Shown here: positions 25,274 through 41,719 of the stretch, one piece after another
How positions within the stretch are numbered: the stretch's first letter is position 1
Layout: each line of letters opens with the position of its first letter
DNA from: Natronosalvus caseinilyticus
GTDB taxonomy: Archaea > Halobacteriota > Halobacteria > Halobacteriales > Natrialbaceae
Length of the DNA stretch: 64,000 nucleotides
Assembly (NCBI RefSeq): GCF_017357105.1
Contig: NZ_CP071596.1
Location: forward strand, 2,108,001 to 2,172,000
Reading direction: 5' to 3'
The notes under the pieces: model-generated
What the model saw: the letters and a program-made list of their open reading frames with translations, nothing else
What the model was told of the DNA's origin: nothing
Database searches by the model: none
Translations under genes and position numbers: made by a program

Positions 25274-26509
25274 ATGTCTGCCGATCCGACGGTCATCCTC
25301 CTCGATGGAGATTACCCGACTGCGCTGACTGTCGCGAAGGAACTCTCCGAGGATCTCGGTGCGACGATCGTCGGCGTTGGAACGACGCGATACAGCCGAT
25401 TGCTCCGGTCGAGATACTGCGACGAGAAGATCCTCGCTCCTCCGCCGGAGAACGAGGGATATGCCGACGCCCTCGAGTCGGCGGTTCGAACCCATCGCCC
25501 GGACTTCGTCTTGCCGGTCGGGTACCAATCGACGATAGCGGTCGATCGACTTCGGTCGATCCTTCCCTCCTCGGTTTCTACCTCTCTCCCCTCGAGCGAG
25601 TCACTCCGTACCGGTGCCGACAAGTCCGCCGTCCTTGACCGTGCGGCCCGTCTCGGAATCGACGTTCCGGCGGAGTACTCGAGCGTCGTCGAGCAAATCG
25701 ACGCGAACGGGCGGCCGAGGGGTGCACTCGACCAACTGAACTTTCCCGTGTTTCTCAAGGCCAGACACGAATCCGGCGGTGGCGAGACGACAGCTCGGGT
25801 CGACGATCCTGCTCGCTTCTGGCGGACCTACGATCGCATTGCGGTGGTCGCACCGGGTGGGGACGTGCTCGTACAAGAGCTAATCGAGGGGACGAGGTCG
25901 ACATACGGGGTCGGCGTCCTCTGTTCGGAAAACGATGTCGTGCTCAGGCTCGGTCACGAGGAACTGCGGTCCGTTCCTCGATGGGGCGGAAGTGGGACGC
26001 ACCTTCGAACCTACCGAAACCCCTCCCTCGAGGCGCAAGCTACGGCCTTGCTACAGGACCTGGGATGGCACGGAATCGCGCTCGTCGAGTTCAAACGCCG
26101 TCCCAACGGTTCGTTCGTACTCATGGAGGTGAACCCGAAATTCTGGGCGTCGTACGCGCTGGCAAGCGAGCGCGGCTACCGATTCGCCTCGACGATGGTC
26201 GCGTCCGCTCTCGACCTGGACATCGACCTCCCTGTCAGGATAATCGGAACGGTTGACGAGATGGTATTTCCGCTTCGTGAACTCCAGTACTGCGTTCAGC
26301 AACCGACCCGGAACGAAATCTCAACCGCTCTCAGGACGGTACTGACCCCCGGTGCAAAGTGGAGTCTCGACTGGACCGACCCCGTCGCCTGGCTGATGCC
26401 ACCTGTCGCCGCGATGGAACGGGTACCCGACGTAGAGACTCGACTCGAGGTCGCTGTCGAGTCCGTAACTGGCCGTCGATCGCGGAACGTAGGAGAGGAT
26501 CGACGATGA
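25274..26509 (+). CDS. ATP-grasp ligase (carbamoyl-phosphate-synthase-like)
   Basis: Carboxylate-amine/thiol ligase-type ATP-grasp protein of 411 residues. An N-terminal preATP-grasp Rossmann-like part (ILLDGDYPTALTVAKEL) is followed by the ATP-binding strands with Lys in FPVFLKARHESGGGETT near residue 155, VLVQELIEGTRSTYGVG near 205, and the metal-binding VEFKRRPNGSFVLMEVNPKFW near 270, where Glu and Asn complete the active site. The family joins a carboxylate to an amine through an acyl phosphate; substrates here could be an amino acid and a sugar uronate or amino sugar. Start ATG 25274 (an in-frame GTG lies at 25256). The stop overlaps the next ORF as ATGA. Confidence 0.82.
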   Translation: MSADPTVILLDGDYPTALTVAKELSEDLGATIVGVGTTRYSRLLRSRYCDEKILAPPPENEGYADALESAVRTHRPDFVLPVGYQSTIAVDRLRSILPSSVSTSLPSSESLRTGADKSAVLDRAARLGIDVPAEYSSVVEQIDANGRPRGALDQLNFPVFLKARHESGGGETTARVDDPARFWRTYDRIAVVAPGGDVLVQELIEGTRSTYGVGVLCSENDVVLRLGHEELRSVPRWGGSGTHLRTYRNPSLEAQATALLQDLGWHGIALVEFKRRPNGSFVLMEVNPKFWASYALASERGYRFASTMVASALDLDIDLPVRIIGTVDEMVFPLRELQYCVQQPTRNEISTALRTVLTPGAKWSLDWTDPVAWLMPPVAAMERVPDVETRLEVAVESVTGRRSRNVGEDRR

Positions 26510-26754
26510 CAGGCTTCAGTGGGACATGGACCGACGATGACGGGTCTCAGCGAGTCGATCGTGGACCCTGCACTGGCCGCTCCAACGAGGACGTCAGCCG
26601 GGTCGCACGTCTCGAGCGTACTTCCATCGGTCTCGAGCGTGCCTTTATCGGGCTATTCGTCCGGAACTGGAAGCGGTTTTCGAACGTGCCTCGAGAAGAG
26701 TCCGCCAGCCTGCAATCGCTGAGAGACGACCAGAAGGGGCGTGATAATGCATGA
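26506..26754 (+). CDS. 82-residue hypothetical ORF overlapped at both ends
   Basis: Open frame starting with ATG 26506 inside the ATP-grasp stop (ATGA) and ending with TGA 26754 inside the next gene's start (again ATGA). The double 4-base overlap in an otherwise gapless operon is the argument for translation. The product has Trp, Arg and Ser residues, one hydrophobic patch (IGLERAFIGLFV near residue 45) and a basic segment, but no motif I recognise. Its third-position GC is lower than its neighbours, and a second frame is open over part of it, so it could also be a leader-like spacer keeping ribosomes moving to the membrane-protein gene. Confidence 0.45.
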   Translation: MTGFSGTWTDDDGSQRVDRGPCTGRSNEDVSRVARLERTSIGLERAFIGLFVRNWKRFSNVPREESASLQSLRDDQKGRDNA

Positions 26755-28580
26755 AGACGATGTTCGACCACAGCTACCTCGTTTCGAAGGTTCTTCTGAT
26801 TCCCCTCGCCGTCCTGGGCATCGCTGGCCCATACATCATCGGTCGCGTGAACCTCTCGATCCTGGGACTCTACCTGGCCCTGCCGATGACGCTGGCCGTC
26901 GTCGTACTGTGGTGCGGAGGGAAGCGTCACTACCGAGAGCCGGTTGGGTGGATCGCCGTCGACTGGCGAGTGTTCTCCATCGTTTTTCACCTCGTCGTCT
27001 CGAGCCTCGTCGTCTTGCTCGCTATTTACGACGTTCGTCCGCTCGCGTTCTTCGTCGGACTCGCCGTCCTGTACGGACTGATCATCGTGTTGATCTGGTT
27101 ACCTAATCTCGGCCCCGGTCGCACGCCGGTCTGTCTGTACCACATGGTCGTCGCATTTGGGCTCACCGTGTTCAGCGTGACCCTGAAGTACGACTTCTTT
27201 TTTGGGAACACGGACTTGAACGTCCATGTCTCGCTGATCAATTCGCTCGTCGAAACCGGCGCGCCAGTATCGATGGAACTGTACGAACCGTTCCAGCTGT
27301 GGCATGTGTACGCGGCGACGACGCACCAACTGTTGGGCGGTTACCTGACGTCCCCCCGAACGGTGTACGTGCTCAGTGGGGTGCTGTTCGGAGCCGGAGT
27401 CCTCGCAGCGTACGGATTCGGACGGCGAGTCACGCTGAACGAACGAGTGGCGCTCCTGACGGCGCTGTTCACGGTATTTCATCCGTTCTACACCTTCTAC
27501 GGAATGTACTCGATTCCGCGGAGCGTCACCTCCATCGTATTTCTCGCGCTCCTCGTCACCCTCTTCGGCCGGACGGCCCCCGGCATGCGCCTCGCTGGTC
27601 TGGTGTTTCTCGTTGCAATCGTCGTTTACCACCCGGTCTCTATCCCGTTCGTGTTCATCATCATGACGATCGTCTACGTGGTCGAACGAATCGTCAGGCA
27701 TTCGTCTGCGGTCGGGGCCCAACCGCCGACCGTCGACTCATTCACGATGGTAACCACGGGGCTGGTGACGCTCACCTACTGGCTGTACGCGGCCGAACCC
27801 CTGGTCGAAACGATCATCGGGGCGCTGTTTAGCGCCGCGTCGGGGTCACGAACCGAGCCGCCGCCGCAAGGAGTCGTGGCTAGCCCGTGGGCAGAGGTCG
27901 CAAACTACGTCCCGTACTCGTTTTTCATCTTCTTCATGCTCCTCGGTGCACTGCTGTGGCTTCGGGACGACACGCGCGAGTGGATCGCCACCGGAGTCAT
28001 CGGCATCTCCGCGCTGCTGCTCGTTCCCCTCTCCGTTCCGGGGCCCACACTCCTCCTCGAGGGCCTCGCCGGGATCAACGTCAATCGGTTCGTCCACTAC
28101 ACGTACATGTTCTTCGCGCTGACGGGGGCCATCGGCGCGTATCGGCTGTTCTCGCGGGGCGGGTTCAAACTCTTCGTCGTTCTCGTGCTCCTGCTATCGC
28201 TCTTCGGCTTCACCGCGGTCTCGAACGACTTCGTCGCGAGGGACAACCCCGCCGTCGAGCGTCCGTTCTACACCTACTACCTGACCGAGCAGGAACGCCA
28301 GTCGTACGAAGACATCGACGCGATGTACGACGGGCTAATCGAAACCGATAGACCGTCGTGTCGATACATGGGCGAAATGCTCGACGCGGAGTGCGTCGTG
28401 GTCGACGCCGGCGCGGAGAACGCGATGTTCGCAGAAGCAGAGAGCGTACTGTTACGAGACGGCGAACTCGAGCGCCGTCCGTTGCAGTTCACGACGTACG
28501 TCGACGACGAGATCCCGGTCGAGAACCTGGCAGAGCGTAACCGCGTGTACGATTCCGGTTCGGTCACGTTCTACCAGTAG
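26751..28580 (+). CDS. Multipass membrane protein, putative GT-C-type glycosyltransferase
   Basis: 609-residue integral membrane protein with about 12 hydrophobic segments (roughly 10-500) and a C-terminal soluble tail of about 110 residues. The first large loop contains FFGNTDLNVHVSLINSLVETG near residue 150, the position and character of the acidic loop of GT-C enzymes that use polyprenyl-phosphate sugars. WHVYAATTHQLLGGY follows. It lacks the WWDxG motif of the AglB oligosaccharyltransferase, so it is not that enzyme. Co-transcribed with the ATP-grasp ligase and 82-aa ORF, it probably transfers or polymerises the sugar they modify. Assignment to GT-C is by topology and loop only. Confidence 0.65.
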   Translation: MKTMFDHSYLVSKVLLIPLAVLGIAGPYIIGRVNLSILGLYLALPMTLAVVVLWCGGKRHYREPVGWIAVDWRVFSIVFHLVVSSLVVLLAIYDVRPLAFFVGLAVLYGLIIVLIWLPNLGPGRTPVCLYHMVVAFGLTVFSVTLKYDFFFGNTDLNVHVSLINSLVETGAPVSMELYEPFQLWHVYAATTHQLLGGYLTSPRTVYVLSGVLFGAGVLAAYGFGRRVTLNERVALLTALFTVFHPFYTFYGMYSIPRSVTSIVFLALLVTLFGRTAPGMRLAGLVFLVAIVVYHPVSIPFVFIIMTIVYVVERIVRHSSAVGAQPPTVDSFTMVTTGLVTLTYWLYAAEPLVETIIGALFSAASGSRTEPPPQGVVASPWAEVANYVPYSFFIFFMLLGALLWLRDDTREWIATGVIGISALLLVPLSVPGPTLLLEGLAGINVNRFVHYTYMFFALTGAIGAYRLFSRGGFKLFVVLVLLLSLFGFTAVSNDFVARDNPAVERPFYTYYLTEQERQSYEDIDAMYDGLIETDRPSCRYMGEMLDAECVVVDAGAENAMFAEAESVLLRDGELERRPLQFTTYVDDEIPVENLAERNRVYDSGSVTFYQ

Positions 28581-28651
28581 TGCGGCTCTCTCGTCTCGAG
28601 GAGCGACAAACAGCGTCCCTTTCCCCTCGAAGCACAGACGACGTGGGTCGC

Positions 28652-30211
28652 TTACTCGACCGCCCAGGAGTACCAGTCACCGCTTCGATAGATCGAGAGG
28701 CGCTCCTCGTCGGAATCCGCGTCCGTCCAGGCGACGACGACGCCTTCGCGGCCGTTTTCGTTCCAGTCGCCGCCGTCTGCTGGGTTCGACGACCCGTTGT
28801 CACCGAGTCCGTTCACAACCGTTCGAACTCCCGTCGAAATGTCCCCTGGAGCGTTTTCGACGACGACGTCCGGCACGTCGATTTCCAGTCGTCCGCCCGA
28901 ATCACCGGTCTCGAGGGTGACGTCCCGGACGACACCACCCCTTCCCGATTCGAAACGAATCGGGCGCACGGACTCGTATCGACCGCCGATCACGCGACAG
29001 TTCTGGGCGCCCCCGTTGAATCGTATCGGATATACGTCACCGGTGAGCGTACACAAACAATCCAGAAATGCTGTCTCGTCCCTGGCCACGGTGATCGCGT
29101 CTTCCGTGACGCTGGAGTTCTTTTCGCCAAAGAACGTGCAGTCTCGAAACGTCACCAAACCGTCGTCGCCTTCGCCGTTCTCGTTGACGACCGCGACCCG
29201 TCGATCCGCGTCCGATCCGAACCGGGAGCCGGTTATCGTCACCGACGCGCCGGAAGGCGCGACCTCGAGCACCGACCGCGACCCCTCGGCGTCGTTGTAT
29301 CCGTAGCAGTTTTCGACCCAGCAGTCGCCGTCACGAAGCCAGTAGCCGCGGGCGTCGGCCAGCTCGGAATCGCGGACCCAGACCACGCTGTCGCGAACGA
29401 CGCCGCCGATTCGAACGTTCGAAATGTCGTTGTCGATGGCCGTACAGTTCTCGATGACGACCGACCCGTTCGAACAGTAGAATCCGTTGTCGGCGCAGTT
29501 TCGGACCAGACTGTGCGTGATCGTTGCGACCGCGTTGTCGGTCGTCTCGACGTACACACCCACGCCTGGCCCCCCATCGACGACGCAGTCGTAGATTTGC
29601 CCGCGAGAGTCTTCCATCCCCATCAGTTCGATCATGCGCCGACCGCTCGTCGGCCGTCCCATCGTCACGAGGTGTTCGAAGATCACGTCGCCGGTCGCGT
29701 ACGCGACGACGGCGGAACCCGCGACGCCGTCTTCGTCCTCCACGTTTCCGAAATCGAACTCGAAGCCGCCGATGTAGACGTTGTGTCCGCTGTACGACCG
29801 GGACGGCCCCAGCGCAAATACCTTGGAATCGTAGACGCCGACCCCCTCGAACGCCGAGGACGGTTCGATCGTCGCGTTGTAGCCGAGTAATCCGAAGTCT
29901 CGAAACGATTCGTGTTCGAATCCGGCGTCCATCCGGTACGTCCCGGGCGGAAAGAGCACCAGGAGTTCGTCGCCGCCTTCCTCGGCGATAATCTCCTCGA
30001 GAACTGACGTGACGTCGTCCTCGCCGGTTGGATCGGCCCCGTAGTCGACGACGTCAACGTGTCGCCAGTGATCAGCGATCGTCGCCTCGTCAGCGTCGGG
30101 AGCCGGTACGTTCCCCGTCTCGTCGATTTCTGCACCCTGGACGGACAGTACGTAGCCAGCGAGGGTCGGTGGAAGGCCACCGACTGCCGTCAGGTACTTC
30201 CGGCGGTTCAT
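28652..30211 (-). CDS. Tat-exported right-handed parallel beta-helix protein
   Basis: 519-residue exported protein. The N terminus has a twin-Arg signal (NRRKYLTAVGG) and a short hydrophobic stretch; DVVDYGADPTGEDDVTSVLEEII near residue 55 is the start of pectate-lyase-3/Pectin-lyase-like folds. From about 130 to 460 the sequence is a run of short beta-helix rungs rich in Asn, Asp, Val and Gly (for example YIGGFEFDFGN, IYDCVVDGGPGVGVYV, VIENCTAIDNDISNVRIGG). No catalytic triad can be named confidently. Located inside the glycan island facing the upstream operon, it could be a lyase, hydrolase or epimerase on the exported polysaccharide, or a phage-tailspike-like binding protein. Confidence 0.8.
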   Translation of the reverse strand: MNRRKYLTAVGGLPPTLAGYVLSVQGAEIDETGNVPAPDADEATIADHWRHVDVVDYGADPTGEDDVTSVLEEIIAEEGGDELLVLFPPGTYRMDAGFEHESFRDFGLLGYNATIEPSSAFEGVGVYDSKVFALGPSRSYSGHNVYIGGFEFDFGNVEDEDGVAGSAVVAYATGDVIFEHLVTMGRPTSGRRMIELMGMEDSRGQIYDCVVDGGPGVGVYVETTDNAVATITHSLVRNCADNGFYCSNGSVVIENCTAIDNDISNVRIGGVVRDSVVWVRDSELADARGYWLRDGDCWVENCYGYNDAEGSRSVLEVAPSGASVTITGSRFGSDADRRVAVVNENGEGDDGLVTFRDCTFFGEKNSSVTEDAITVARDETAFLDCLCTLTGDVYPIRFNGGAQNCRVIGGRYESVRPIRFESGRGGVVRDVTLETGDSGGRLEIDVPDVVVENAPGDISTGVRTVVNGLGDNGSSNPADGGDWNENGREGVVVAWTDADSDEERLSIYRSGDWYSWAVE

Positions 30212-30519: not shown

Positions 30520-31560
30520 ATGAGTGTCAGAATTTCGGTATTGAACCCCGCCGATCGAGAGTCGTGGAACGAATACGTCGAGCGGTCACCGCAAGGATCG
30601 GTCTTCCATCGGTACGACGCGCTCAGAACGCAGGCGGCGTACTCAGACGCCAGGCTGTACCCTCTCGTCGGATACAAAGGCGAGGAACCAATCGGAATCT
30701 TTCCTGTTTTCGAAAGTCACACGGGCCCCGTCGCGTTCGCGTTCTCTCCACCGCACGGGTTACACGTACCTGCTCTCGGTCCCGCGTTGCTCAACATGGA
30801 CCAGCTCAAACAACGCAAACGGGAGAAGCGCCACAGTCGGTTCATCGATGGATGTTTCGAGTGGATCGACCGCGAACTCGAGCCGACGTACACTTCGATT
30901 CGAACGTCGTGGCGGTACGACGACATGCGTCCGTTCAAGTGGAACGGATTCGACGTCCACCCGAGTTACACGTACGTCGTCGATCTCGAGACCGACGAAG
31001 AGACGTTGATCCGTCGATTCAGTCGAACCACGCGTCGAACCATCCGGAATCATCTCGACGACGAGTACACGGTGACAGTCGGCGGCGTCGACGCGGCCAG
31101 GTGGATCATGGAGCAGGTGGTCAGCCGATTCGAAGAGCAAGGGAAAACGGCGACGATGTCCCCGTCGTTCGTGGTCGAACTCTACGAACGACTTCCTGAA
31201 GGTGTCGTGAACCCGTACGTGCTCTCCGTCGACGGAGACCCTGTCACCGGTACGATTCTCCTCGTGGACGGCGAAACGGCCCACCGGTGGCAAGGTGGAA
31301 CGAAGCCCGGGACGTCTCTCCCAGCGAACGAACTCCTCGAGTGGCGGATGCTCACCGACGCGATGAAACGCGGTGTCAGTGAGTACGAGATCGTCGACGC
31401 CAACATCCCGCGAATCAACGAGTGGAAGTCGAAGTACAATCCGAACGTCCGGACGTACTACACGATGCACCGATCCGGTCAGGGAATGGCCGCCGCCGTG
31501 CAGCTGTATCTCAGGCTTCGTGATCGAAACGAACTCGTCACGAAACTCGCACCAGGCTAA
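30520..31560 (+). CDS. FemAB/GNAT-like acyl- or aminoacyl-transferase (copy 1)
   Basis: 346-residue protein of the BioF2-like/FemAB branch of the GNAT superfamily. The first GNAT half has WNEYVERSPQGSVFHRYDALR, typical of this branch. The middle has RRFSRTTRRTIRNHLDDEYTV and the second half GTILLVDGETAHRWQGG and ELLEWRMLTDAMKRG, with YEIVDANIPRINEWKSKYNP near the C terminus as in lipid II peptidyl-bridge enzymes. FemAB enzymes use aminoacyl-tRNA; archaeal relatives near polysaccharide genes probably acylate sugars, with donor unknown. Paralogous to the protein at 33256-34356. It stands alone on the plus strand, converging on the flippase gene. ATG 30520. Confidence 0.8.
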   Translation: MSVRISVLNPADRESWNEYVERSPQGSVFHRYDALRTQAAYSDARLYPLVGYKGEEPIGIFPVFESHTGPVAFAFSPPHGLHVPALGPALLNMDQLKQRKREKRHSRFIDGCFEWIDRELEPTYTSIRTSWRYDDMRPFKWNGFDVHPSYTYVVDLETDEETLIRRFSRTTRRTIRNHLDDEYTVTVGGVDAARWIMEQVVSRFEEQGKTATMSPSFVVELYERLPEGVVNPYVLSVDGDPVTGTILLVDGETAHRWQGGTKPGTSLPANELLEWRMLTDAMKRGVSEYEIVDANIPRINEWKSKYNPNVRTYYTMHRSGQGMAAAVQLYLRLRDRNELVTKLAPG

Positions 31561-31672: not shown

Positions 31673-33199
31673 TCATTTGTGGCGGGTCGGAATCCGCTCG
31701 ACCAGTTCGAGCAACTGCCGTTCGACCGCTTTCGGTAGCGCCGTCGCGGTAGCGATCTCCTCGAGGTCATCACTCGTAATCGCACCGGTCGCGACCGAGG
31801 CAACGACGAACACGACCGCACCGAACGGCGGGACGATCACGAGCGAGAGGATCGATGAGTCGATCGCCCACGAGACGAGAAAGATCGACGTGGCCGACAC
31901 GATGATCGTGACGGACGTGGCTTCCCAGCGGATGCCCTCGAGCGGTCGGTACCCCAACCGGCGGGCGATGGCCGTCTGGAACACGACGAGGCTTCCGTAG
32001 CCGATCGACGTCGCGATGGCGGCCCCGATCATTCCGTAGCCTGGAATCAACAGCAGGTTCAACAGTACATTGATCAGCGAGCTGGCGCCCGTCGCGACGA
32101 GGAGCGGACGAAGCGATCGCCTGGCCTGGTTGATGGCGAGGGACGGTCTCGCGACCGCGAATCCGAGCACGCCAGGGAGCAGCAACAACAGAGGCGTGAT
32201 CGCCGGCCGGAACGACTTGCCTAAGTAGAGTGGAACGAAGTCGGCCGCCAGCGCAGCGAGGCCGAGTACAAGCAACGTCGTAAACAGGAACACGTAGCGC
32301 GTAACGACCTGGGATTGCCGCTCGATAGCGTCGATATCCCCGCGCTCCCAGAGATGCGAGACACGCTGTAAGAGCGCGTACTGAACGGCGACCGGTGCGA
32401 ACCACAGGACTTCGGCGATCACTAGCGCACCTTTGTAGTATCCCACGAACTCGTCGGACAGCCAGAGCTGGAGCAAGAGCACGTCGACGTGGTACAGGGA
32501 CGTCAAAAAGAGGAAGAAACCGATCGTACTCGCGGTGTAGGTAATTATCTGCCCTTTCGGAAGGCTCACGCCGCTCGGGAAGAGGGCGCGGCGGATAGGC
32601 AACACTCGACTGACGATGGCCAATCCGACCACGATGGTGAACGCGCTGGAGACGATGGATCCGAGCAATACGCCTTCGACGCCGTAACCGAGGTACACGA
32701 ACGTGATCGCGACCGCGACGAATAGCGTCTCGTCGACAACTTTTAGCGGTTCCGAGCGAGACTCCAGTTGGAGTCCCATTAGCGTCCACAGGACGTGCGT
32801 CGCCAGTTGGTTGAAAACGAGATACGCGCCGAGTACGTAGAAGAGCGACGTGAACGCCGGTCCGAACGTGGATGCTGCGAGACCCGTGTACGCCGCCAGA
32901 GCGAACAGCGCGGCGGCGAGAAGGCCGACGACGAACGCAGTTCTGAACACGTAGCCGAAGATGGCGGCCTGCCACTCCGTATCCGATCGTTCGGAGATGT
33001 ACTTTCGAACCGTATCACCCGTCCCCGAGATCAGCACGATCCCGACGACGGAGTATACGGACAGGACGAGCGCGTACCGACCGTACTCGACCGGTCCGAG
33101 GAGGCGAACGAGAACCGGTGTGAATCCCACTCCGAGGAGCAGCATGAACATCTTCGAAACGATGATCGAGACGACCGCGGATGAAAACGAATTGCCCAT
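31673..33199 (-). CDS. Lipid-linked oligosaccharide flippase (Wzx/MVF type)
   Basis: 508-residue membrane protein with about 14 hydrophobic helices, of the polysaccharide biosynthesis/MOP exporter superfamily. The N-terminal FSSAVVSIIVSKMFMLLLGVGFTPVLVRLLGPVEYGRYALV is the characteristic first repeat (positions 4-45), and IPGYGMIGAAIATSIGYG near residue 390 is the conserved mid-C-terminal signature. It would turn the finished polyprenyl-linked glycan across the membrane, the step between cytoplasmic assembly and surface transfer. Last gene of the minus-strand group deacetylase, formyltransferase, FemAB copy 2, flippase, with 56 bases after the FemAB gene. ATG 33199. Confidence 0.88.
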   Translation of the reverse strand: MGNSFSSAVVSIIVSKMFMLLLGVGFTPVLVRLLGPVEYGRYALVLSVYSVVGIVLISGTGDTVRKYISERSDTEWQAAIFGYVFRTAFVVGLLAAALFALAAYTGLAASTFGPAFTSLFYVLGAYLVFNQLATHVLWTLMGLQLESRSEPLKVVDETLFVAVAITFVYLGYGVEGVLLGSIVSSAFTIVVGLAIVSRVLPIRRALFPSGVSLPKGQIITYTASTIGFFLFLTSLYHVDVLLLQLWLSDEFVGYYKGALVIAEVLWFAPVAVQYALLQRVSHLWERGDIDAIERQSQVVTRYVFLFTTLLVLGLAALAADFVPLYLGKSFRPAITPLLLLLPGVLGFAVARPSLAINQARRSLRPLLVATGASSLINVLLNLLLIPGYGMIGAAIATSIGYGSLVVFQTAIARRLGYRPLEGIRWEATSVTIIVSATSIFLVSWAIDSSILSLVIVPPFGAVVFVVASVATGAITSDDLEEIATATALPKAVERQLLELVERIPTRHK

Positions 33200-33255: not shown

Positions 33256-34356
33256 TCACGAGAAAATCTGACCGACGACTTTGGATTTGATTTCTGTCGT
33301 TCTCTCTCGCACGGTCTCGGGGGTGACTGGCGTCGAGGACGTGTACCACTGGTGAGCGACGCGTCCGCCGTTCAGTGCCGCCAGGGCGGCCCGAGGATAC
33401 CCCCGTTCCCAAGTGAGACAGGGGGCCGCGCGGGTAGCGAAGCGTTCCTTGAATCGAAACAGTCCGTTTCGAAAGTCGGGCTCCGTTCCGCGGAAGTTGT
33501 ACGTCTCGTAGCCGTTTTCGATGGCCCACTTGATGGCGTGTTCGTGGATCAACTCCGACGCGTTGTACTCGAAGTGGTCCTCCGTGACGCCCGAACAGAG
33601 GTAATGAAGCGTCGACCGTTCGTCGTCCAGCACGAACATCATCAGTCCACGTCGCGCTCCATCGACGTGGAGCGAAAATACCTTGATTCGTTCGGGGAAG
33701 TTACGGAGTTCGAGAAAGAACGCTCGAGTCAATCGGGCGCCGCCGACGCGTTCCGCGACGTCGGTATAATTCGAGTGCATCTCGCTTAGGACTGCTCTGG
33801 TCAGTTCTTCCTCGACGATCTCCCCGTCGTGATCGTGTCCTCGCCTGATCGCCCGTCGCCTTGAGCTATCCATCTCTGCGAGGAGGGCGTCCCAGTTGCG
33901 CGACGTATCGAGGAGCATGTCACAGTTAGTAATTCGCAGGCTATACCCGTGCTCCAGGAAGCTGTCGTGGTATCGAACGTAGGACGAATCGACGTTACTG
34001 ATCTGGTGAAATCGAACCGACCCGTCACAGAGGCGAGCCGTCGATTCGAGTATTAGATCGAGCGCGGTTTCCTCGTTGCCAATGGCGACCGGGCCGCCCG
34101 ACCCGGGCCGTATACTGTAGAGCCGTCGAACCGGGATCGACCCGATCGAACCGACGAAGTTCGGAGACATGGCGATGGGGTTACCTTTCTTTTCGACGAG
34201 TAGATGACGTGGCTCGAGCGGTTGACCCCGTTCGACTGCCCGGAGCCAGCCGTAACGATGGAAGACGCTACCCAGATCGGCCTGCTCGACGACGTGGTTC
34301 CACTGGTTTCGATCGGCCTGTTCGATGCTGTCGAGTCGCGTTACAGTGAGGGACAT
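33256..34356 (-). CDS. FemAB/GNAT-like acyl- or aminoacyl-transferase (copy 2)
   Basis: 366-residue paralogue of the protein at 30520-31560: NQWNHVVEQADLGSVFHRYGWLR at the N terminus, LEHGYSLRITNCDMLLDTSR and MDSSRRRAIRRGHDHDGEIVEE in the middle, RGLMMFVLDDERSTLHYLCSG, and ASELIHEHAIKWAIENGYETYNFRGTEP near residue 285 (the GTEPDFRNGLFRFKERF end is typical of FemAB-type GNATs). Soluble, no signal. On the minus strand AAGTTATTTCTG (about 34396-34407) may be a promoter 40-50 bases upstream, so it might be transcribed apart from the formyltransferase. Amino acid, acetyl and other acyl donors are all possible. Confidence 0.8.
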   Translation of the reverse strand: MSLTVTRLDSIEQADRNQWNHVVEQADLGSVFHRYGWLRAVERGQPLEPRHLLVEKKGNPIAMSPNFVGSIGSIPVRRLYSIRPGSGGPVAIGNEETALDLILESTARLCDGSVRFHQISNVDSSYVRYHDSFLEHGYSLRITNCDMLLDTSRNWDALLAEMDSSRRRAIRRGHDHDGEIVEEELTRAVLSEMHSNYTDVAERVGGARLTRAFFLELRNFPERIKVFSLHVDGARRGLMMFVLDDERSTLHYLCSGVTEDHFEYNASELIHEHAIKWAIENGYETYNFRGTEPDFRNGLFRFKERFATRAAPCLTWERGYPRAALAALNGGRVAHQWYTSSTPVTPETVRERTTEIKSKVVGQIFS

Positions 34357-34517: not shown

Positions 34518-35300
34518 CTAGATGAATCGATTCCCGCGACGCCGAAACTCCCGCCGGTCGTCCCGGGTCGGACGGGAGTAGTACTCGCCCTCCTCGAGAT
34601 CGTTGGGCCTCGTTTCGATGGTTCCGTCGGCGACCTGATCGATGACGTCGACCGCGACGTCCGGCCCAACCTCTGTCAGTTTGAGATAGATGTCGTGCAT
34701 CGTGTCATCGGGCAGTACCTCGTACTTCTGTTGTACGATGATCTCGCCGGAATCGAACTCCGGCGTCATGTAGTGGGCGGTGACCCCACTCTCGTCTTCC
34801 CCGTGATAGAGCACCCAGAACGACGTCGAGAGGCCGCGATACTTCGGCAAGAGAGATCCGTGGACGTTGATCGCGCCCTCCTCCGGAATTTCCAGAAGAT
34901 CTTCACCCATTCGTTGACCACAGGCGATCGAAAGAACGAGATCAGGTTTCAATTCCCGGATCTGGTCGACGAACGCTTCGTCGTTGACGTCGTTCACTTC
35001 TTCCACCGGAATGTCATAAGCCGCCGCGAGCGTTCGGACCGAGTGAAATCGCCCCGTGGTCCGATAGACTGGTCCCGTCGGCAATCTGGCAGCGATTTTC
35101 CCCGCTACATACCGGAGGCCAAACCGAAAAAAGGCCGACGGGCCGAACATCTGGAACCGGCCTCGAACCTCCTCGAGCATCGACCGTTGCATCGGCGCGA
35201 GGACGACCTTCGAGAGAGTCTCGGATCGTTCGGAAAACACCGGCTCGAGGTACCGCGGCATGTAGATGGGATCGTCCTGCGTGAAGAGAATTACGTCCAT
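34518..35300 (-). CDS. Formyltransferase family protein (sugar N-formyltransferase-like)
   Basis: 260-residue protein of the formyl_trans_N family that includes Met-tRNA formyltransferase, GART and amino-sugar N-formyltransferases using N10-formyltetrahydrofolate. The catalytic triad is intact: Asn145 and His147 in INVHGSLLPKYRG, and Asp183 in YMTPEFDSGEII. The SLLPKYRGL loop binds the folate. It lacks the C-terminal OB domain of Met-tRNA formyltransferase and starts with MDVILFTQDDPIYMPRYLEP, not the canonical nucleotide-binding opening. Flanked by a deacetylase (10-base overlap) and a FemAB-like protein, so an amino-sugar substrate is the best inference. ATG 35300. Confidence 0.83.
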   Translation of the reverse strand: MDVILFTQDDPIYMPRYLEPVFSERSETLSKVVLAPMQRSMLEEVRGRFQMFGPSAFFRFGLRYVAGKIAARLPTGPVYRTTGRFHSVRTLAAAYDIPVEEVNDVNDEAFVDQIRELKPDLVLSIACGQRMGEDLLEIPEEGAINVHGSLLPKYRGLSTSFWVLYHGEDESGVTAHYMTPEFDSGEIIVQQKYEVLPDDTMHDIYLKLTEVGPDVAVDVIDQVADGTIETRPNDLEEGEYYSRPTRDDRREFRRRGNRFI

Positions 35301-36106
35301 GCGTACGCTACCGGTTCGTAGAGGTCAGACACTTTCTCGAACGTGTACCCGTTTCGTCTCAGCGTCGAGACGAACTCGGTGAGTATGTCGACGGACCGAT
35401 CCATGTTCCGGGTCATGAGCGTGCGCTTTGGTTGTGGCAGGTGGTCGTGAAACTCGGTCCTCCAGAAATCCTGCAGGTGGGAGTCGTACACTAACGGCGT
35501 GGGAAGGGGCACGTGCTTCAAAAGAGAAAGATACGGACGCCCGAGGAGTTTGAGATAGTTCTGCGAAATCGGAATCCGGAGCCCAGGGACGGCCGCAAAC
35601 GGAATCTCGAGGAGTCGATCGACTTCCGTCGGGACGTACGGGGTGAGCGGGGCGCGGATATTGTTGTACACGCCGGGGCGATAGGAGGGGAAGACGCTGG
35701 AACTGAACTCGAAGCCGGCCCGCTCGAGTTCCGCCCACTCGCCCTGGACGATGTTTCCCTGCGGTGCCCGGTACCCGCGGGGTGGTTCACCGAAGTGTGA
35801 CTCGAACGCTGCTACCCCTCGCTGGATTTCGGTCTCGAATTCGTACGATTTCGTCATGTCGTGTTGATACGAGTGAAGGTGGAATTCGGCGTCTAGCTCC
35901 CAACGAAGGCGCTCGACGATACCGGGATAATTCTCTATCGTGACCCCGACAACGAACACGCTAATCGGCACGTCCAGCTGCTCGATGAGTGCAATATAGT
36001 CGTCTACGTGGTCGAACGTCGGATTCGGACTCTCGTCGCCCGGGATACACCAATCTTCCTCGAGATCGAGCGTCATACAGGCGATGGGTCCACTACTACG
36101 CGACAT
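35291..36106 (-). CDS. Polysaccharide deacetylase (CE4 family)
   Basis: 271-residue NodB-homology protein. CMTLDLEEDW supplies the catalytic Asp14 and acidic metal pocket, FHLHSYQHD carries the H78-x3-H82 metal ligands, and GYRAPQGN near residue 112 is the family's R-x-P motif. The late His strand falls near PKRTLMTRNMDRS. No signal peptide, so it probably acts on cytoplasmic lipid-linked sugar, exposing an amine that the co-transcribed formyltransferase or FemAB-like protein could modify (inference). The opening LDLEEDW also recalls the deacetylases in exosortase/PEP-CTERM polysaccharide loci. First gene of the minus-strand group; ATG 36106. Confidence 0.87.
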   Translation of the reverse strand: MSRSSGPIACMTLDLEEDWCIPGDESPNPTFDHVDDYIALIEQLDVPISVFVVGVTIENYPGIVERLRWELDAEFHLHSYQHDMTKSYEFETEIQRGVAAFESHFGEPPRGYRAPQGNIVQGEWAELERAGFEFSSSVFPSYRPGVYNNIRAPLTPYVPTEVDRLLEIPFAAVPGLRIPISQNYLKLLGRPYLSLLKHVPLPTPLVYDSHLQDFWRTEFHDHLPQPKRTLMTRNMDRSVDILTEFVSTLRRNGYTFEKVSDLYEPVAYAWT

Positions 36107-36358: not shown

Positions 36359-36370
36359 CGCTATAGCTTT
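36359..36370 (+). promoter_or_regulatory. TATA box for the 89-aa membrane protein
   Basis: GCTATAGCTTTT lies 31-42 bases before ATG 36401, in the 294-base divergent gap (36107-36400). It is consistent with a near-leaderless transcript of the small membrane-protein gene. Confidence 0.5.
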
Positions 36371-36400
36371 TACTTCGTTCCTCGTTCGACCCGTCTACAG

Positions 36401-36670
36401 ATGAGACCGCACCGAATGCGGTTCGTCCTTGTTCAGTGTTCGTGGCTGCTGGGAACGGTGCTCGTTCTCTCAGCGACTGGACTCTACTCGTACGACCTGT
36501 TTATTTTGTTCTCCGCACTCGGCGTCGCCATCCTGACGAATCTGCTCAATCTGTCACACGTGCAACCGCGTTGGATCGGTTGGCCTCGAGTCCTCACCAG
36601 GGTCTTGTTGGCGGGCGCCACAGCAGTTCTCTGTTATCGTTTCGTCAGCCTGTTCGTCTTGTCACCGTAG
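36401..36670 (+). CDS. Small membrane protein of unknown function
   Basis: 89-residue protein with two or three hydrophobic segments (about 8-30, 31-48 and 65-88) separated by a short HVQPRWIGWP loop. No known motif. A TATA box sits about 35 bases upstream, which supports expression; it could start at either Met1 or Met6. It precedes, in convergent orientation, the membrane-anchored protein at 36812. Its place inside the island suggests a surface-glycan or membrane role, but nothing more can be read. Confidence 0.6.
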   Translation: MRPHRMRFVLVQCSWLLGTVLVLSATGLYSYDLFILFSALGVAILTNLLNLSHVQPRWIGWPRVLTRVLLAGATAVLCYRFVSLFVLSP

Positions 36671-36811
36671 TCAGCGCCCGTCGAGCGTCGATCGATAAGC
36701 GAATTGATACCTCGCGTCTGGTTCGATTCGTCTCATTACGTGAGACTCGACACAGCACCACTTCGCTGGAAGCAACTGGAAATCTGCAACAGTCATCGCT
36801 TCGAACGATCT

Positions 36812-37678
36812 CTATCGATACTCGAGGACCCACGTTCCGTCGTCGGCTAGCGCGGAGGCCTCGAACGAGATTCGGCGGTCGAGTCCGACAGCGAGACCTA
36901 CCGCGAGAAAGGAGGCGACCGGGTGGTCGAACTGATCTAAGGGCCCGAAGACGTTCCTCGAAATAGTAATCGTGACTACCCCCTCGTCCGGTCGCACGTT
37001 CGCGTCGGCGTCCGTGACGAACTCGAAACGGCGTTCGAGCGAATCGATCAACTGTTCAGCCAGTAGTTCCGGGGTGTTCGCAACCGGTTCGTCCAGTGCC
37101 CGTTCGAACTCCCGGAACAGCGCTGCCCCGGTCGGCTCAAGGATGAATCCACGTTCCCCCGAGTCGACGATAGAGAATCCAGCCGCGTCTTGGACGCCGC
37201 CGTCGACGGCGGCCGGGACGAATAGCCGAGCCCCGGATTCGACACCGTCCGGGTTCGGCACGTAAATTCGCTCGGTGCTCGAACCGAACGTCGCCGTGAT
37301 CGCCTCGAGGTTGGCCGCACACGTCTCGTACACTTCGGCCCCATCTCTGGCCTCGATCGACTGCGTCCCCGTCACTCCGTACGTTAGAACGCTGGCGAAC
37401 AACCCGATCCCGCCGAGCGAGAAGAGGACTTCACGACCCGTCGATACGACGAACCCAGCAGCGAAACAGAACACGCCGATGGCGACGAATCCCGCTATCG
37501 TGAGTCGCTCGCGCGTCGTACGAGCACCGGCGGGGAACCGTACCGTCCGATCACGAACGACGGAGGTTCTGGCACCGTCGGCTGGAGCAGTTCCTCCTTC
37601 GAAAGCCCGCTTTTCACCGCCCTGATCGAACGCAGCGGACGACGCATCCGGCGTACTATCGTACTCTTCCGGGCTCAT
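36812..37678 (-). CDS. Haloarchaeal membrane-anchored protein of unknown function
   Basis: 288-residue protein. After a hydrophilic Ser/Glu/Thr-rich start (MSPEEYDSTPD, about 60 residues) come two hydrophobic helices near 60-80 and 85-105 (IAGFVAIGVFCFAAGFVV and VLFSLGGIGLFASVLTYGV), then a soluble alpha/beta-like domain with IYVPNPDG and FEFVTDADANVRPDEGVVTITIS. I recall similar proteins beside DUF1616 genes in haloarchaeal glycosylation regions, as here, but cannot name the family securely. ATG 37678 is preferred; the frame continues upstream without a methionine-like start of coding character. Confidence 0.65.
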   Translation of the reverse strand: MSPEEYDSTPDASSAAFDQGGEKRAFEGGTAPADGARTSVVRDRTVRFPAGARTTRERLTIAGFVAIGVFCFAAGFVVSTGREVLFSLGGIGLFASVLTYGVTGTQSIEARDGAEVYETCAANLEAITATFGSSTERIYVPNPDGVESGARLFVPAAVDGGVQDAAGFSIVDSGERGFILEPTGAALFREFERALDEPVANTPELLAEQLIDSLERRFEFVTDADANVRPDEGVVTITISRNVFGPLDQFDHPVASFLAVGLAVGLDRRISFEASALADDGTWVLEYR

Positions 37679-38070
37679 GTGGGAGTACTCGAGCGAGATG
37701 TCGGTTCGTTCGAATGGGAGGTTTCGTCGACGCACGACCGTGCCATCTGAAGCCAGCGAGGGACGGACAGGCGTCGTGGGCACGAACCAGTATCGTCCTG
37801 CCACCGAGGGACGTGCGAGTGGTCGTGGCCGTCTGTGGGGGTCGTCACAGTGTCTCTTCCCAAACTACCGAGGACCACTGCTTTAAATTGCTGGTCGTCA
37901 ATCCCGGTTTACCTGCCGTTGACGGGTCTAAACGGACGGTTTCTTGCAGTGGGGCCGCGGCTATATCACGTATCACGACAGCGTTCAGTGGTCCAACGAT
38001 CATCGGATCCAGACAGTCTGGACTACCGTCCATCCGATTTTAATCGCGGTTCGTGAAAGAGACAGAGAGG
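37679..38070. promoter_or_regulatory. Divergent promoter region of the DUF1616 gene
   Basis: 392 bases. The palindromic CGATTTTAATCG (about 38034-38045) contains a TATA-like core 26-37 bases before ATG 38071 and could double as an operator. The rest shows no coding frame, RNA gene or repeat that I recognise. Confidence 0.45.
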
Positions 38071-39084
38071 ATGATTCGCTCGCTCGTCCGACCCCACGTT
38101 CGTCGACTGCCGGCGGACCTGACGGGAGTCCTCGCTCTCACGGCCCTGACGAACGTCGTCGTGTTTGCCCCGGTGATACGGGAAACGCCCCTTCGTGTTC
38201 CGTTCGGTCTCGTCTTCGTCCTCATCGCTCCAGGATACGCGCTGGTTGCTCTCGTGTTTCCAGAGCGCGGGCCAGTAGACCGGTTCGACGATGCCAACGG
38301 CGGGGTTCAGTCGCCGACGACGATTCTCGAACGTCCCCGGTCGTGGTGGGGAACGATCGACGGCCCGGAACGCATCGCGTTTTCAATCGCTTCGAGCGCC
38401 ATTATCGTCCCGATGATCGGTTTCATCCTAATTACTGTTCAGGGGACGTTCCGATTTGGACCGACGTTCGTCGCCGTCTCGGTCGTTACCGTCGCCCTCA
38501 CGGCCGGCGCAATCTGGGAACGCCTGGCGCTCTCACCGGCCGATCGGTTTCGAGTTCCATATGACGAGTGGATGGACACTCTTCGCACGTCGGTTTTCGA
38601 TTCTGATTCTCGCCGCTCAGCGATCCTGAACGTCACCCTGATCTGCACGATACTGCTCGTGATCGCGAGCGTTGGATACGCCGCCACGGCACTTCCACAA
38701 GACGACGAGTACTCCACGATATACGTTCTCTCCGAAGACGATGCGGATCCGATACTCGAGATCCCGCCAGGAGAGAGCCAGGAGGTCGTCGTGGGGGTAG
38801 ACAACCACGAAGAGCGGACTACGACGTACACGGTCGTCGTCGTCGAACAGGAGATGGACGTCTCGGAAAACGAAACCCGCGTCGTCGACCAGCGCGAGCT
38901 CGAGCGGTTCGAGGCGACGGTCGATCACGACGAGACGTGGCGTCTCGCTCACGACGTCGAGCCGACTGCGAACGGCGAGGTGCGCATCGTCTGGTTGCTG
39001 TACGTCGACGACGCTCCTGCGGAGCCGTCGATCGAGTCCGCAGCGTACCGGGTGCACCTGTGGGTCGAGGAAGGCGAATCGTGA
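38071..39084 (+). CDS. DUF1616 family membrane protein
   Basis: 337-residue membrane protein of DUF1616 (PF07760), an archaeal family frequently encoded in cell-surface glycan and S-layer regions. Hydrophobic segments lie near 15-35, 45-65, 110-130, 140-160 and 195-215. A characteristic RVPFGLVFVLIAPGYALVALVFP (positions about 40-62) precedes the acidic loop, and the C-terminal 110 residues form a beta-rich extracytoplasmic domain (EIPPGESQEVVVGVDNHEERTTTY). Function unknown. ATG 38071 is chosen over GTG 38053 because of the TATA spacing. Converges on the ATP-grasp gene with 33 bases between stops. Confidence 0.8.
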   Translation: MIRSLVRPHVRRLPADLTGVLALTALTNVVVFAPVIRETPLRVPFGLVFVLIAPGYALVALVFPERGPVDRFDDANGGVQSPTTILERPRSWWGTIDGPERIAFSIASSAIIVPMIGFILITVQGTFRFGPTFVAVSVVTVALTAGAIWERLALSPADRFRVPYDEWMDTLRTSVFDSDSRRSAILNVTLICTILLVIASVGYAATALPQDDEYSTIYVLSEDDADPILEIPPGESQEVVVGVDNHEERTTTYTVVVVEQEMDVSENETRVVDQRELERFEATVDHDETWRLAHDVEPTANGEVRIVWLLYVDDAPAEPSIESAAYRVHLWVEEGES

Positions 39085-39117
39085 GAAGAGGGCGAACGCG
39101 TCGCCCACTTCGATCCC

Positions 39118-40320
39118 CTACCCGATCCTGTGTTGAAGAACCCGCCGGAGTTCACGCGAGAACGGAACGGGATCGCCAAACCGGAAGACGTCGAAGTGAG
39201 GTGCCCGGACGCACGACTCGAGAATCTCTCGCGTCGTGGCCAGAATCGGGGGACGGTCGACGAGTATCGGGTCGTCCCGTCGGAGGCTGAGCAGGTAGTG
39301 TACTTCGCCGTAGAGGTAGTGACTCCTGACGCCACGTTCGTACCTCGCGTCGATCGACGATTTCCGGTCGAGCGCCTGCAGCCAGTAGTACGCCGGAAAG
39401 TCGGCGCCCGCCCGGACCGCACAGGGGAGCGATTGCCAGAACCGCGGGTTGATCTCGAGCAGTTTGTACTCGCCGGTGGTGGCGTCCTTCGCGTACTCGA
39501 TGCACGCGATGCCGTGCCAGTCGAGGCTATCCAGTAGCGTACGGCCGACGGCCTCCAGTTTCGGATCGTGTATGGACTCCCGATAGACGCCGCCACCGCC
39601 GGTGTACGAGGTTCCGCGAATCTGTCGGTGCTGGAACGTCGCGACCGCCTCGCCCTGGTCGTACAGCGCGCCGAACACGTACTGGTCGTCGTGTCGAACG
39701 TACTCCTGGACGATCGGTTCGTGTCGCATGGTGGCGCGAATCGCCGCTTTGTCGGGTTCGTCTCCGGGTTCGACGTAGACCACGTCCTTTTCGACCGCGG
39801 ACGTATCCGAGGCGAGCGACGGCGTGAGTTCCGCGGTGAGAAGATTGTACCTGGATTTGATGACGAACGCGTCGTCCCATCGGTCGACCTCGTCGAGACA
39901 TCGCGTTTCGGGAACCGGAACGCCGGCCTCGCGAGCGGCGTCGAAGAGTTTCGTCCGGTCGTTGACGACCTCGAGCGCCCCGGTCGGCGGCGCGATCACC
40001 GACGCGTATTGTTCGAACTCGTCCCGGTAGGTCGCGAACACGTACGGATCGGCCGGGCGGAGCGGGAGGATCGCCCGGACGTCCGGTCGAGCGGCGATTC
40101 CCTTCAGTGCGTCTTTGTACGCGACGAGGTCGTCGTCGGGGGAACAGATCTGGATCTGTTCGTTACAGAATCGCGATCCGCCAGCAGGGACGTCTTCGTG
40201 TTCCGAGGCGACGATCGTGTGGACGCCGCACTCGGCGAGCGAGCGAACGCACGCGTAGCAGGCAGGATTGAATTTTGCGGGGAGAAGGACCGCTTCCCGG
40301 CCGGACGCGTCGGTGACCAT
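39118..40320 (-). CDS. ATP-grasp domain ligase (second copy)
   Basis: 400-residue ATP-grasp protein with the same layout as the one at 25274. PreATP-grasp AVLLPAKFNPACYACVRSLAECG at the N terminus; ATP-binding FVIKSRYNLLTAEL near residue 152; IVQEYVRHDDQYVFG near 207; HGIACIEYAKDATTGEYKLLEINPRFWQSLP near 270 with the metal-binding Glu and Asn. The C-terminal 90 residues are specific. I recall such proteins often being annotated as carboxylate-amine ligases. A link to glycan aminoacylation is inferred from location only. It has its own TATA box and diverges from the GT4 gene. ATG 40320. Confidence 0.83.
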   Translation of the reverse strand: MVTDASGREAVLLPAKFNPACYACVRSLAECGVHTIVASEHEDVPAGGSRFCNEQIQICSPDDDLVAYKDALKGIAARPDVRAILPLRPADPYVFATYRDEFEQYASVIAPPTGALEVVNDRTKLFDAAREAGVPVPETRCLDEVDRWDDAFVIKSRYNLLTAELTPSLASDTSAVEKDVVYVEPGDEPDKAAIRATMRHEPIVQEYVRHDDQYVFGALYDQGEAVATFQHRQIRGTSYTGGGGVYRESIHDPKLEAVGRTLLDSLDWHGIACIEYAKDATTGEYKLLEINPRFWQSLPCAVRAGADFPAYYWLQALDRKSSIDARYERGVRSHYLYGEVHYLLSLRRDDPILVDRPPILATTREILESCVRAPHFDVFRFGDPVPFSRELRRVLQHRIG

Positions 40321-40343
40321 CGAGACGAACGAGAGGATGCACC

Positions 40344-40355
40344 AGTATATACGGC
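40344..40355 (-). promoter_or_regulatory. TATA box for the ATP-grasp gene
   Basis: On the minus strand CCGTATATACTG lies 24-35 bases before ATG 40320. It is the nearest AT-rich element and has leaderless spacing. Confidence 0.6.
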
Positions 40356-40598
40356 GACAACTGTTCGTCTACGTAATTACGTATTTCTGTCGTCTCCGAG
40401 GAGCCCGTGGACGGACGTTGCACTCCGCCTCGATGGCGAAGAAGAGGTGCCGTCGACGGGTTCGGTGGCTGGTCTGGTTTCGCCTCAGGAGGTGGTAGAC
40501 CGCTCTCTCGCTTCGCCGCAAGCTCGTGAGGGCCATCTCTCTCGTTTCGTCGCGGGAGGTGACGGAACCCCTCGAGTGACGGTCGGCATCACAAATAC

Positions 40599-40611
40599 CC
40601 TATATTTTTAC
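40599..40611 (+). promoter_or_regulatory. TATA box for the GT4 gene
   Basis: CCTATATTTTTAC lies 26-38 bases before ATG 40637, the strongest TATA match in this part of the window, with an A-rich ACAAATA just upstream that could act as a BRE. Confidence 0.65.
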
Positions 40612-40636
40612 CCCCTCGCTGGCATCTACAGCGTAG

Positions 40637-41719
40637 ATGCGAATCGCGTTCGTCTCCTTCGAAACCGCCCACCACCGAGAGACGGAGACGAACGAACGCT
40701 TTCGGACCGTTCTCGACCTCCTCACCAACCGCGGCCACGAGATCCACGTCTGCTGCGCGCAGTTCTGGCCAGGCGAGGCGTCCACGCTCGAGCGAGACGA
40801 CGTCGTCTACCACGGCGTCTCGACCGGCCTCGAGGCGCGCCAGTCGTTCCTGCTTCGCCTCCCGTTCGTCCTCCGATCGATCGGCCCGGACGTGATTCAC
40901 GCTAGTGCCGACCCCGCGGGCCAGGCGCGGGCGGCCAACTGGGGCGCGACGCTGGCTCGAGCCCCGATGGTCCTCGAGTGGTACGGCGCGGGGATCGGCG
41001 TCGACGGTGCCGTCGGCATCCCGGACGACCGCGGCCATCGCTACGCGGCCCGGAACGCCGACCGCATCGTCACACCGTCGCGGATGGTCCGGACCTGGGT
41101 CAGAGAGCGAGGCGCTTCGGGTGAACGCGTCGACGTCGTCCCGAACCCGATCGACCTCGAGCGGATCGAGGCGACGCCGCCGGGCGACCGGGTCGACGTC
41201 GTCTACGCCCGGCGACTCGACGAGGGGGCGAACCTCGAGAGCCTGCTCCTCGGGCTCGCAGAACTCCGGGACCGAAACTGGCACACCCTCGTCCTCGGGG
41301 ACGGCCCGCAGCGAGGGATGTACGAGCAACTCACGCGGGACCTGCGGATCGACGACCGGGTGACATTCGCCGGGGAAACGAGTCGGAACGAGCGCATCGC
41401 GGCCTACCGGAGCGCGCACGTCTTCGCCCAGACCGCCACCGAGTGCGTCTTCCCGACCGAGTTCGCCTGGGCGCTCGGGGCGGGTTGTGTCGGCATCGTC
41501 GAGTACCACGCCGACTCCGCGGCTCACGAACTCGTCGAGGGCTGGGAGCGGGGCTTCCGGACCACGAGCGAACAGGAGCTCGCCGACGCCATCCTCGAGG
41601 CCGGCGACCTCGAGCACCGGACCTACGACGAGTCGTTCGCGAACCTGGATCGGGGGGCGGTGCTGGAGACGTACCTCGAGACCTATCGGGAGCTCCAGGA
41701 CGCACGCGGGCTGCTCTAA
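40637..41719 (+). CDS. Family 4 glycosyltransferase
   Basis: GT-B-fold retaining glycosyltransferase of 360 residues. The acceptor domain has SFETAHHRETETNERFRTVLDLLTNRGHEIHV and PDVIHASADPAGQARAA; the donor domain has NADRIVTPSRMVRTWV, VVPNPIDLERIE near residue 173, GDGPQRGMYEQL near 220, and the ATECVFPTEFAWALGAGCVGIVEY segment near 275 with the E-x7-E-like acidic pair of GT4. Codon use is high-GC like the core genome, and it has a strong promoter, so it may be older than the central island. Sugar and acceptor unknown. ATG 40637. Confidence 0.88.
   Translation: MRIAFVSFETAHHRETETNERFRTVLDLLTNRGHEIHVCCAQFWPGEASTLERDDVVYHGVSTGLEARQSFLLRLPFVLRSIGPDVIHASADPAGQARAANWGATLARAPMVLEWYGAGIGVDGAVGIPDDRGHRYAARNADRIVTPSRMVRTWVRERGASGERVDVVPNPIDLERIEATPPGDRVDVVYARRLDEGANLESLLLGLAELRDRNWHTLVLGDGPQRGMYEQLTRDLRIDDRVTFAGETSRNERIAAYRSAHVFAQTATECVFPTEFAWALGAGCVGIVEYHADSAAHELVEGWERGFRTTSEQELADAILEAGDLEHRTYDESFANLDRGAVLETYLETYRELQDARGLL

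Follow-up and report, generated by a model that had tools for sequence, protein, structure and literature searches.

A conserved haloarchaeal polysaccharide locus with a recurrent ATP-grasp/FemX-like core and a separable deacetylase-formyltransferase cassette

The N-glycan of Methanococcus carries threonine in amide linkage on N-acetylmannosaminuronic acid (ManNAcA), and known sugar N-formyltransferases, among them the formyltransferase domain of ArnA, VioF, WlaRD, and PseJ, use amino sugars that DegT-family enzymes produce. That haloarchaeal wall polymers can contain amide-linked amino acids has been established since the 1970s, from N-glycyl-glucosamine in Halococcus (PMC4187196); the heteropolysaccharide wall of Halococcus morrhuae contains N-glycyl-glucosaminyl bridges, and Natronococcus has a glutaminylglycan (PMC4187196, PMC4243693). 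No paper assigning genes to these amino acids was found, most of the subscription literature lying outside the search. Here we describe a locus in a 64,000-nucleotide stretch of Natronosalvus caseinilyticus (assembly GCF_017357105.1, contig NZ_CP071596.1, positions 2,108,001 to 2,172,000), referred to as the window, from a haloarchaeal genome of 4.2 Mb. According to family profile searches, positions 25274-41719 of the window encode two ATP-grasp ligases, two FemAB-type transferases, a formyltransferase (FT), a CE4 deacetylase, a Wzx-type flippase, and a GT4 glycosyltransferase. Comparison of related loci indicates that these genes belong to two modules, a recurrent ATP-grasp/FemX-like core and an accessory CE4-FT cassette, and not to one pathway. 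An earlier note on this DNA had listed the same enzymes, which profiles and alignment bear out, together with GT2 and GT-C enzymes, which they do not: no GT2 was found inside the interval by the profile searches, the nearest lying at 16561-17655, and the supposed GT-C enzyme, a 609-residue protein, has no Pfam, NCBIfam, or PDB match. The principal genes are as follows.

25274..26509, plus strand: ATP-grasp ligase 1, of the carboxylate-amine ligase type (PF02786, 25.9 bits, cut-off 19.8)
30520..31560, plus strand: Fem1, the second FemAB/GNAT-like transferase (PF13480, 56.3 bits, 5e-15)
31673..33199, minus strand: Wzx-type polysaccharide flippase (PF01943, 1.1e-10; PF13440, 6.9e-9)
33256..34356, minus strand: Fem2, a FemX-like, predicted aminoacyl-transfer-RNA (tRNA)-dependent transferase (PF02388, 46.0 bits, cut-off 24)
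34518..35300, minus strand: FT, an N-formyltransferase resembling the ArnA formyltransferase domain (PF00551, 107.8 bits, 6.9e-31)
35291..36106, minus strand: CE4-type deacetylase, cytosolic, first gene of the CE4-FT cassette (PF01522, 44.6 bits, 1.7e-11)
39118..40320, minus strand: ATP-grasp ligase 2 (weak PF15632 and PF02655 matches, under the Pfam cut-offs)

Several components have described counterparts from which they depart. Fem2 shares the double-GNAT fold and the catalytic-lysine position of the FemABX enzymes (Weissella FemX; Sbb17/Sba18 and enzymes of the Orf11 type, from streptothricin-class pathways), but it is archaeal, lies in a polysaccharide locus, and is 13-20% identical to the solved members. 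The window FT has the Formyl_trans_N domain and the Asn-x-His...Asp triad of the known sugar N-formyltransferases, but it is paired with CE4 rather than DegT, and its N-terminal part is longer and divergent. The nearest NCBIfam models of the window CE4 and Fem2 describe enzymes of XrtA/PEP-CTERM exopolysaccharide systems, the TIGR03006 deacetylase and the TIGR03019 FemAB protein, although the scores (54 of 276.2 bits and 41 of 260 bits, respectively) are both far under cut-off; the FT-adjacent CE4s of loci L040 (320.8) and L043 (317.6) exceed the TIGR03006 cut-off of 276.2. The Halococcus morrhuae and Natronococcus polymers are haloarchaeal and contain amino acids in amide linkage, on amino sugars or together with them, as is predicted for the window locus. 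The Methanococcus N-glycan likewise combines an archaeal aminouronate with an amide-linked amino acid, but it is protein-linked and from a methanogen, and the comparison made here is one of chemistry.

Conservation of the core and its separation from the cassette

A set of 294 haloarchaeal genomes was searched with FT, Fem2, ATP-grasp 1, and ATP-grasp 2, and the neighborhoods were then compared. ATP-grasp 1, at a threshold of E below 1e-60, was found in 23 genomes, and Fem2 lies within 8 kb of it in 15 of these, across at least eight genera; among the 16 genomes having ATP-grasp 1 and any Fem2, the two are linked within this distance in all but one (15/16). Because of this linkage (15/23) and the adjacency of FT and CE4 (9/13, described below), the clustering is not due to chance. 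The earlier note had called for such a comparison of gene order and had named scattered genes without co-occurrence as the outcome that would count against it, an outcome that the comparison did not give. The neighborhoods of Fem2 contain the 609-residue protein, the flippase, a 330-residue protein, an 89-residue protein, DUF1616, and PL14-like proteins in varying subsets, with the 609-residue protein kept with the core in L047, L049, L051, L056, L063, L065, and L066, and Fem1 recurring beside Fem2 in L049, L053, L062, L064, L065, and L066. The locus of Halorussus salilacus is annotated by NCBI as encoding a polysaccharide lyase, a flippase, a carboxylate--amine ligase, and a FemA/FemB glycyltransferase, and in a genome of the genus Halapricum (G274) ATP-grasp 1, ATP-grasp 2, and Fem1 lie beside UDP-aminouronate genes and a GT2.

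The only PDB entries matched by the Fem2 profile are FemX (2e-10), a pair of peptide synthases that depend on aminoacyl-tRNA, and, at a weak level, FemA. The AlphaFold model of Fem2, having a predicted local distance difference test (pLDDT) score of 87.5, finds FemX as its best Foldseek match (1.2e-17, template-modeling score 0.65-0.73), followed by Sbb17/Sba18, which are aminoacyl-tRNA-dependent synthases with structures solved with streptothrisamine, and then by FemA and MprF, while acyl-CoA-dependent GNATs rank lower. Residues F302-K303 of Fem2 align to F304-K305 of FemX and are unchanged in 19 of 19 sequences; Lys305 is the proposed catalytic residue of FemX, and the related enzyme Orf11 glycylates streptothrisamine using Gly-tRNA (PMC12945691). 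ATP-grasp 1 has a CarB-like profile match (4e-16), and its residues E278, E291, N293, and R238, which include the metal-binding E...E-x-N motif, are unchanged in 13 sequences, ATP-grasp 2 among them. ATP-grasp 2 is 23% identical to ATP-grasp 1, the two aligning across the ATP-grasp motifs, and its relatives are present in 144 of the 294 genomes.

The core and the cassette are seldom found together. FT and CE4 profiles match almost none of the Fem2 core loci, with one weak FT match in L062, and FT-CE4 pairs also occur in loci lacking the core; on this locus comparison a single pathway for all the genes is rejected. FT, CE4, ATP-grasp, and Fem2 share one locus in only three of the genomes sampled, namely that of the window, N. 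halobius, and G288, the last belonging to another family and having distant homologues. The syntenic locus of N. rutilus, with ∼89% DNA identity on both sides, has kept the core and is missing FT-CE4; at L047:17588-17768 it retains a 185-bp frameshifted FT remnant, 79% identical to the 3' end of FT and matching window positions 34521-34705. From the conserved flanks and the persisting remnant, the cassette is judged to be ancestral to the window lineage, N. halobius, and N. rutilus, and to have been lost from the N. rutilus locus; the remnant rules out, with respect to N. rutilus, a recent gain of FT-CE4 in the window lineage. Another CE4-FT pair is carried elsewhere in the N. rutilus genome. 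Since N. rutilus, like most genomes, keeps the core without FT-CE4, the deacetylase is not needed for the FemAB/ATP-grasp step, and the proposal of the earlier note that one coherent module includes a deacetylase feeding these enzymes is not sustained.

In four loci (L050, L052, L055, and L060) a 77%-conserved protein of 420-450 residues lies between ATP-grasp 1 and Fem2, forming a three-gene mini-locus. This protein is an alpha-barrel with weak similarity to GH76, GH127, and pectic lyases, and no PDB relative of it was found.

The deacetylase-formyltransferase cassette

The CE4 gene overlaps that of FT by 10 bp, and gaps of 161 and 56 bp follow onward through Fem2 and the flippase, all on one strand, because of which these four genes are probably co-transcribed. 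Alignment shows that FT residues N145, H147, and D183 are unchanged in 16 of 16 homologues, in agreement with the intact Asn-His-Asp triad reported in the earlier note, and that CE4 residues D14, H78, H82, R113, and H210 are unchanged in 13 of 13. Among solved structures, FT is closest to the formyltransferase domain of ArnA (4e-33). The CE4 sequence opens straight on the catalytic barrel, and no signal peptide was seen on inspection of it. FolD is encoded in the genome, providing for the supply of 10-formyl-tetrahydrofolate (formyl-THF).

CE4 adjoins FT in 9 of 13 haloarchaeal full-length FT relatives, with CE4 preceding FT in four pairs and FT preceding CE4 in five; the plasmid NZ_CP119788.1 of Haloarcula halobia is one archaeal example. 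The order FT then CE4 is also present in five bacterial loci (L006 and L008-L011, from Nitrospirota and one unassigned bacterium), in one of which, L006, GT4 genes come after the pair. With zero to six CE4 genes per genome, chance adjacency of CE4 and FT is negligible, although the genomes are related to one another and the pattern was seen ahead of the count. No DegT aminotransferase was found within 10 kb of FT in any of the 13 relatives in the window-FT subfamily, or within 170 kb of the window FT itself. By contrast, in the control set of next-best, lower-scoring FT relatives of other genomes DegT lies within 10 kb in 15 of 15, and none has an adjacent CE4 (0/15). When G111, in which CE4 and DegT (1.7 kb away) are both near FT, and G148, in which neither is, are added to the controls, DegT is near 16 of 17. 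Because of these opposing frequencies of DegT and CE4, CE4 is probably the source of the amine that FT formylates. The glycan context and the coupling of deacetylase to formyltransferase, both put forward in the earlier note, thus find support in the pairing of the two genes in both orders, in archaea and bacteria, with no aminotransferase near. In the FT tree the window FT groups with those of G237 and G279, in which CE4 comes first, and with four solitary FTs (97/97 support), and the FT-first pairs fall into two separate groups.

In two distant genomes (L034:8469-12379 and L035:8852-12629) a GT2 fused to DUF2304, a CE4, an FT, and a glycosyltransferase-like gene are contiguous, a set that resembles ArnC-ArnD-ArnA without the aminotransferase.

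Predicted chemistry and rival explanations

We consider the locus, at a probability of about 0.48, to be a Wzx-type surface or exopolysaccharide locus with two separable cytoplasmic decoration modules, an amino-acid amide core and an acetyl-to-formyl cassette. Its observed basis comprises the enzyme families, the active-site residues, the two linkage groups, the lack of an aminotransferase, and the disappearance of the cassette from the N. rutilus locus, and from these we infer every substrate, the order of the reactions, the tRNA dependence, and the lipid-linked stage. Both modules would act in the cytoplasm on a lipid-linked repeat unit, prior to flipping. ATP-grasp 1 and Fem2, joined by Fem1 and ATP-grasp 2 as additional members, would amide-link amino acids to the repeat unit, Fem2 drawing its amino acid from aminoacyl-tRNA and the ATP-grasp enzyme activating a carboxylate that could plausibly belong to an aminouronic acid. 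In the cassette, CE4 would strip the acetyl group from a 2-acetamido sugar and FT would add formyl, taken from 10-formyl-THF, to the amine thus exposed, the net acetyl-to-formyl swap standing in for the usual aminotransferase route. After export, the secreted PL14-like and beta-helix proteins may trim or modify a uronate-rich polymer.

Several observations weigh against the two-module proposal. Four of the 13 FT relatives (in G288, G216, G234, and G178, corresponding to L036-L039) have no nearby CE4 or aminotransferase and lie among unrelated genes, and the window CE4 is just 20-24% identical to the CE4s of FT-first pairs, so its substrate may differ. ATP-grasp 2 falls under curated cut-offs, and both it and Fem1 are assigned on family membership alone. 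The two modules seldom share a locus, and their joint action is unsupported beyond the three genomes named above.

A different order of reactions, modeled on ArnA and ArnD, would have FT formylate an amino sugar in nucleotide-activated form, after which a polyprenyl-phosphate transferase would move the sugar to lipid and CE4 would remove the formyl group; formyl would thus be transient, and the final sugar would bear a free amine. The kinship of FT with the ArnA domain is in keeping with this order, as are the CE4-like nature of ArnD, the weak matches of two FT-neighbor CE4s to the ArnD model (5e-5 and 8e-5), and the suitability of a free amine for a FemX-like acceptor; the GT2 with DUF2304 beside CE4-FT in G237 and G279 also matches ArnC weakly (1.5e-11 and 1.1e-9), and matches polyprenyl-phosphate sugar synthases more strongly. 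However, the Arn pathway requires the DegT-family enzyme ArnB, and DegT is missing from the vicinity of FT in all 13 relatives; moreover, the window CE4 has no match to the ArnD model (PRK15394) at E 0.05, and other CE4-FT pairs adjoin GT4 and not GT2. We therefore regard the Arn-like order as unlikely.

The two remaining alternatives concern the core. It may be that the locus is an ordinary exopolysaccharide locus devoid of amino acids, in which the FemAB-like proteins work as GNATs that depend on acyl-CoA, and the ATP-grasp enzymes ligate something else. PF13480 spans many GNAT-type proteins, with seven copies in this genome alone, the substrate is not readable from sequence, and Fem1 lacks FemX-specific evidence; yet the match of Fem2 to FemX, FemA, MprF, and other aminoacyl-tRNA-dependent enzymes ahead of acyl-CoA GNATs, by both profile and fold, the unchanged equivalent of the FemX lysine, and the repeated adjoining of ATP-grasp 1 to Fem2 make such a locus as improbable as the Arn-like order. 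Alternatively, the FemX/ATP-grasp pair might act on lipid, peptide, or protein, the sugar genes being merely its neighbors. The fold similarity of Fem2 spans both FemX, which modifies a peptide stem, and MprF, which modifies a lipid, while the mini-loci (L050, L052, L055, L060, and L061) have no glycosyltransferases and place the alpha-barrel protein between ATP-grasp and Fem2. Nevertheless, the pair is accompanied by a flippase, glycosyltransferases, or lyase-like proteins in L049, L051, L056, L063, L065, L066, and L074, and a non-glycan target is quite improbable.

The locus is real and conserved, and it has more structure than the earlier note could discern, yet its enzymes belong to known families, loci of its type are known, and its chemistry is predicted. 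A wider, twofold claim is advanced tentatively, namely that CE4-FT could make N-formyl amino sugars by a route that needs no aminotransferase and is common to archaea and bacteria, and also that the ATP-grasp/FemX core could perform tRNA-dependent decoration of surface polysaccharide and supply candidate genes for amino-acid-bridged haloarchaeal walls. The core yields a brief list of genes open to testing and would provide a genetic handle on amino-acid-decorated archaeal glycans, and the cassette, if confirmed, would represent a route to N-formyl sugars without an aminotransferase and would aid the annotation of many archaeal and bacterial polysaccharide loci.

Precursor, secreted, and membrane proteins of the locus

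The remaining features of the window that bear on the locus are as follows.

12077..19804, plus strand: upstream aminouronate-precursor block (Pfam/NCBIfam matches), namely a hexapeptide acyltransferase, a UDP-GlcNAc 3-dehydrogenase-like protein, two UDP-aminosugar 6-dehydrogenases, an AglJ-like GT2, DUF354, and a UDP-GlcNAc 2-epimerase
21630..23669, minus strand: secreted PL14-lyase-like protein with a twin-arginine translocation (Tat) motif (family profile against alginate lyase 6kzk)
23970..24935, minus strand: second secreted PL14-lyase-like protein, start set from homologues, 46% identical to the 21630..23669 protein
26751..28580, plus strand: 609-residue polytopic membrane protein, candidate polymerase or lipid-linked glycosyltransferase (13 hydrophobic segments)
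28652..30211, minus strand: secreted right-handed beta-helix protein with a Tat motif, pectate-lyase/epimerase-like (PF12708, 1.8e-11; PF13229, 2.3e-7)
36401..36670, plus strand: 89-residue membrane protein of the core, recurring in L047, L049, L051, L056, and L066
36812..37804, minus strand: 330-residue protein of the core with two transmembrane segments, recurring in L049, L051, L056, L063, L065, and L066; no Pfam match
38053..39084, plus strand: DUF1616 membrane protein (PF07760, 1.3e-85), recurring in L049, L056, L063, and L070
40637..41719, plus strand: GT4 glycosyltransferase (PF13439, PF13579, and PF00534 above cut-offs)

Because the upstream block contains the 2-epimerase, the two 6-dehydrogenases, and the 3-dehydrogenase-like gene, aminouronate precursors are likely made by its products; N. 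halobius and N. rutilus preserve the synteny of its 3' genes (GT2 and DUF354). A 531-residue dehydrogenase of the block has an N-terminal extension of ∼85 residues. The gene list of the earlier note lacked these UDP-aminosugar/uronate genes, as well as the two PL14-like proteins, the Tat beta-helix protein, DUF1616, and the 330-residue protein.

The profile of the PL14-like family matches alginate lyase 6kzk at 1.3e-13, and PF21294 (PL14) matches 9 of 16 family members, at best with 4.6e-21, the 288-residue member in the window showing weak PF14099 only. PL14-like proteins are present in 12 of the 20 Fem2-locus stretches compared, and the protein at 21630-23669 ends in three near-identical C-terminal repeats of ∼100 residues each. 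The AlphaFold model of the 609-residue protein is of low quality (mean pLDDT 46), and a GT-C or polymerase role for it is a guess. Finally, positions 44104-46653 encode a Mur-ligase fused to a pterin-binding (folate-type) domain, near the formyl-THF-dependent FT, a proximity that is probably coincidence.

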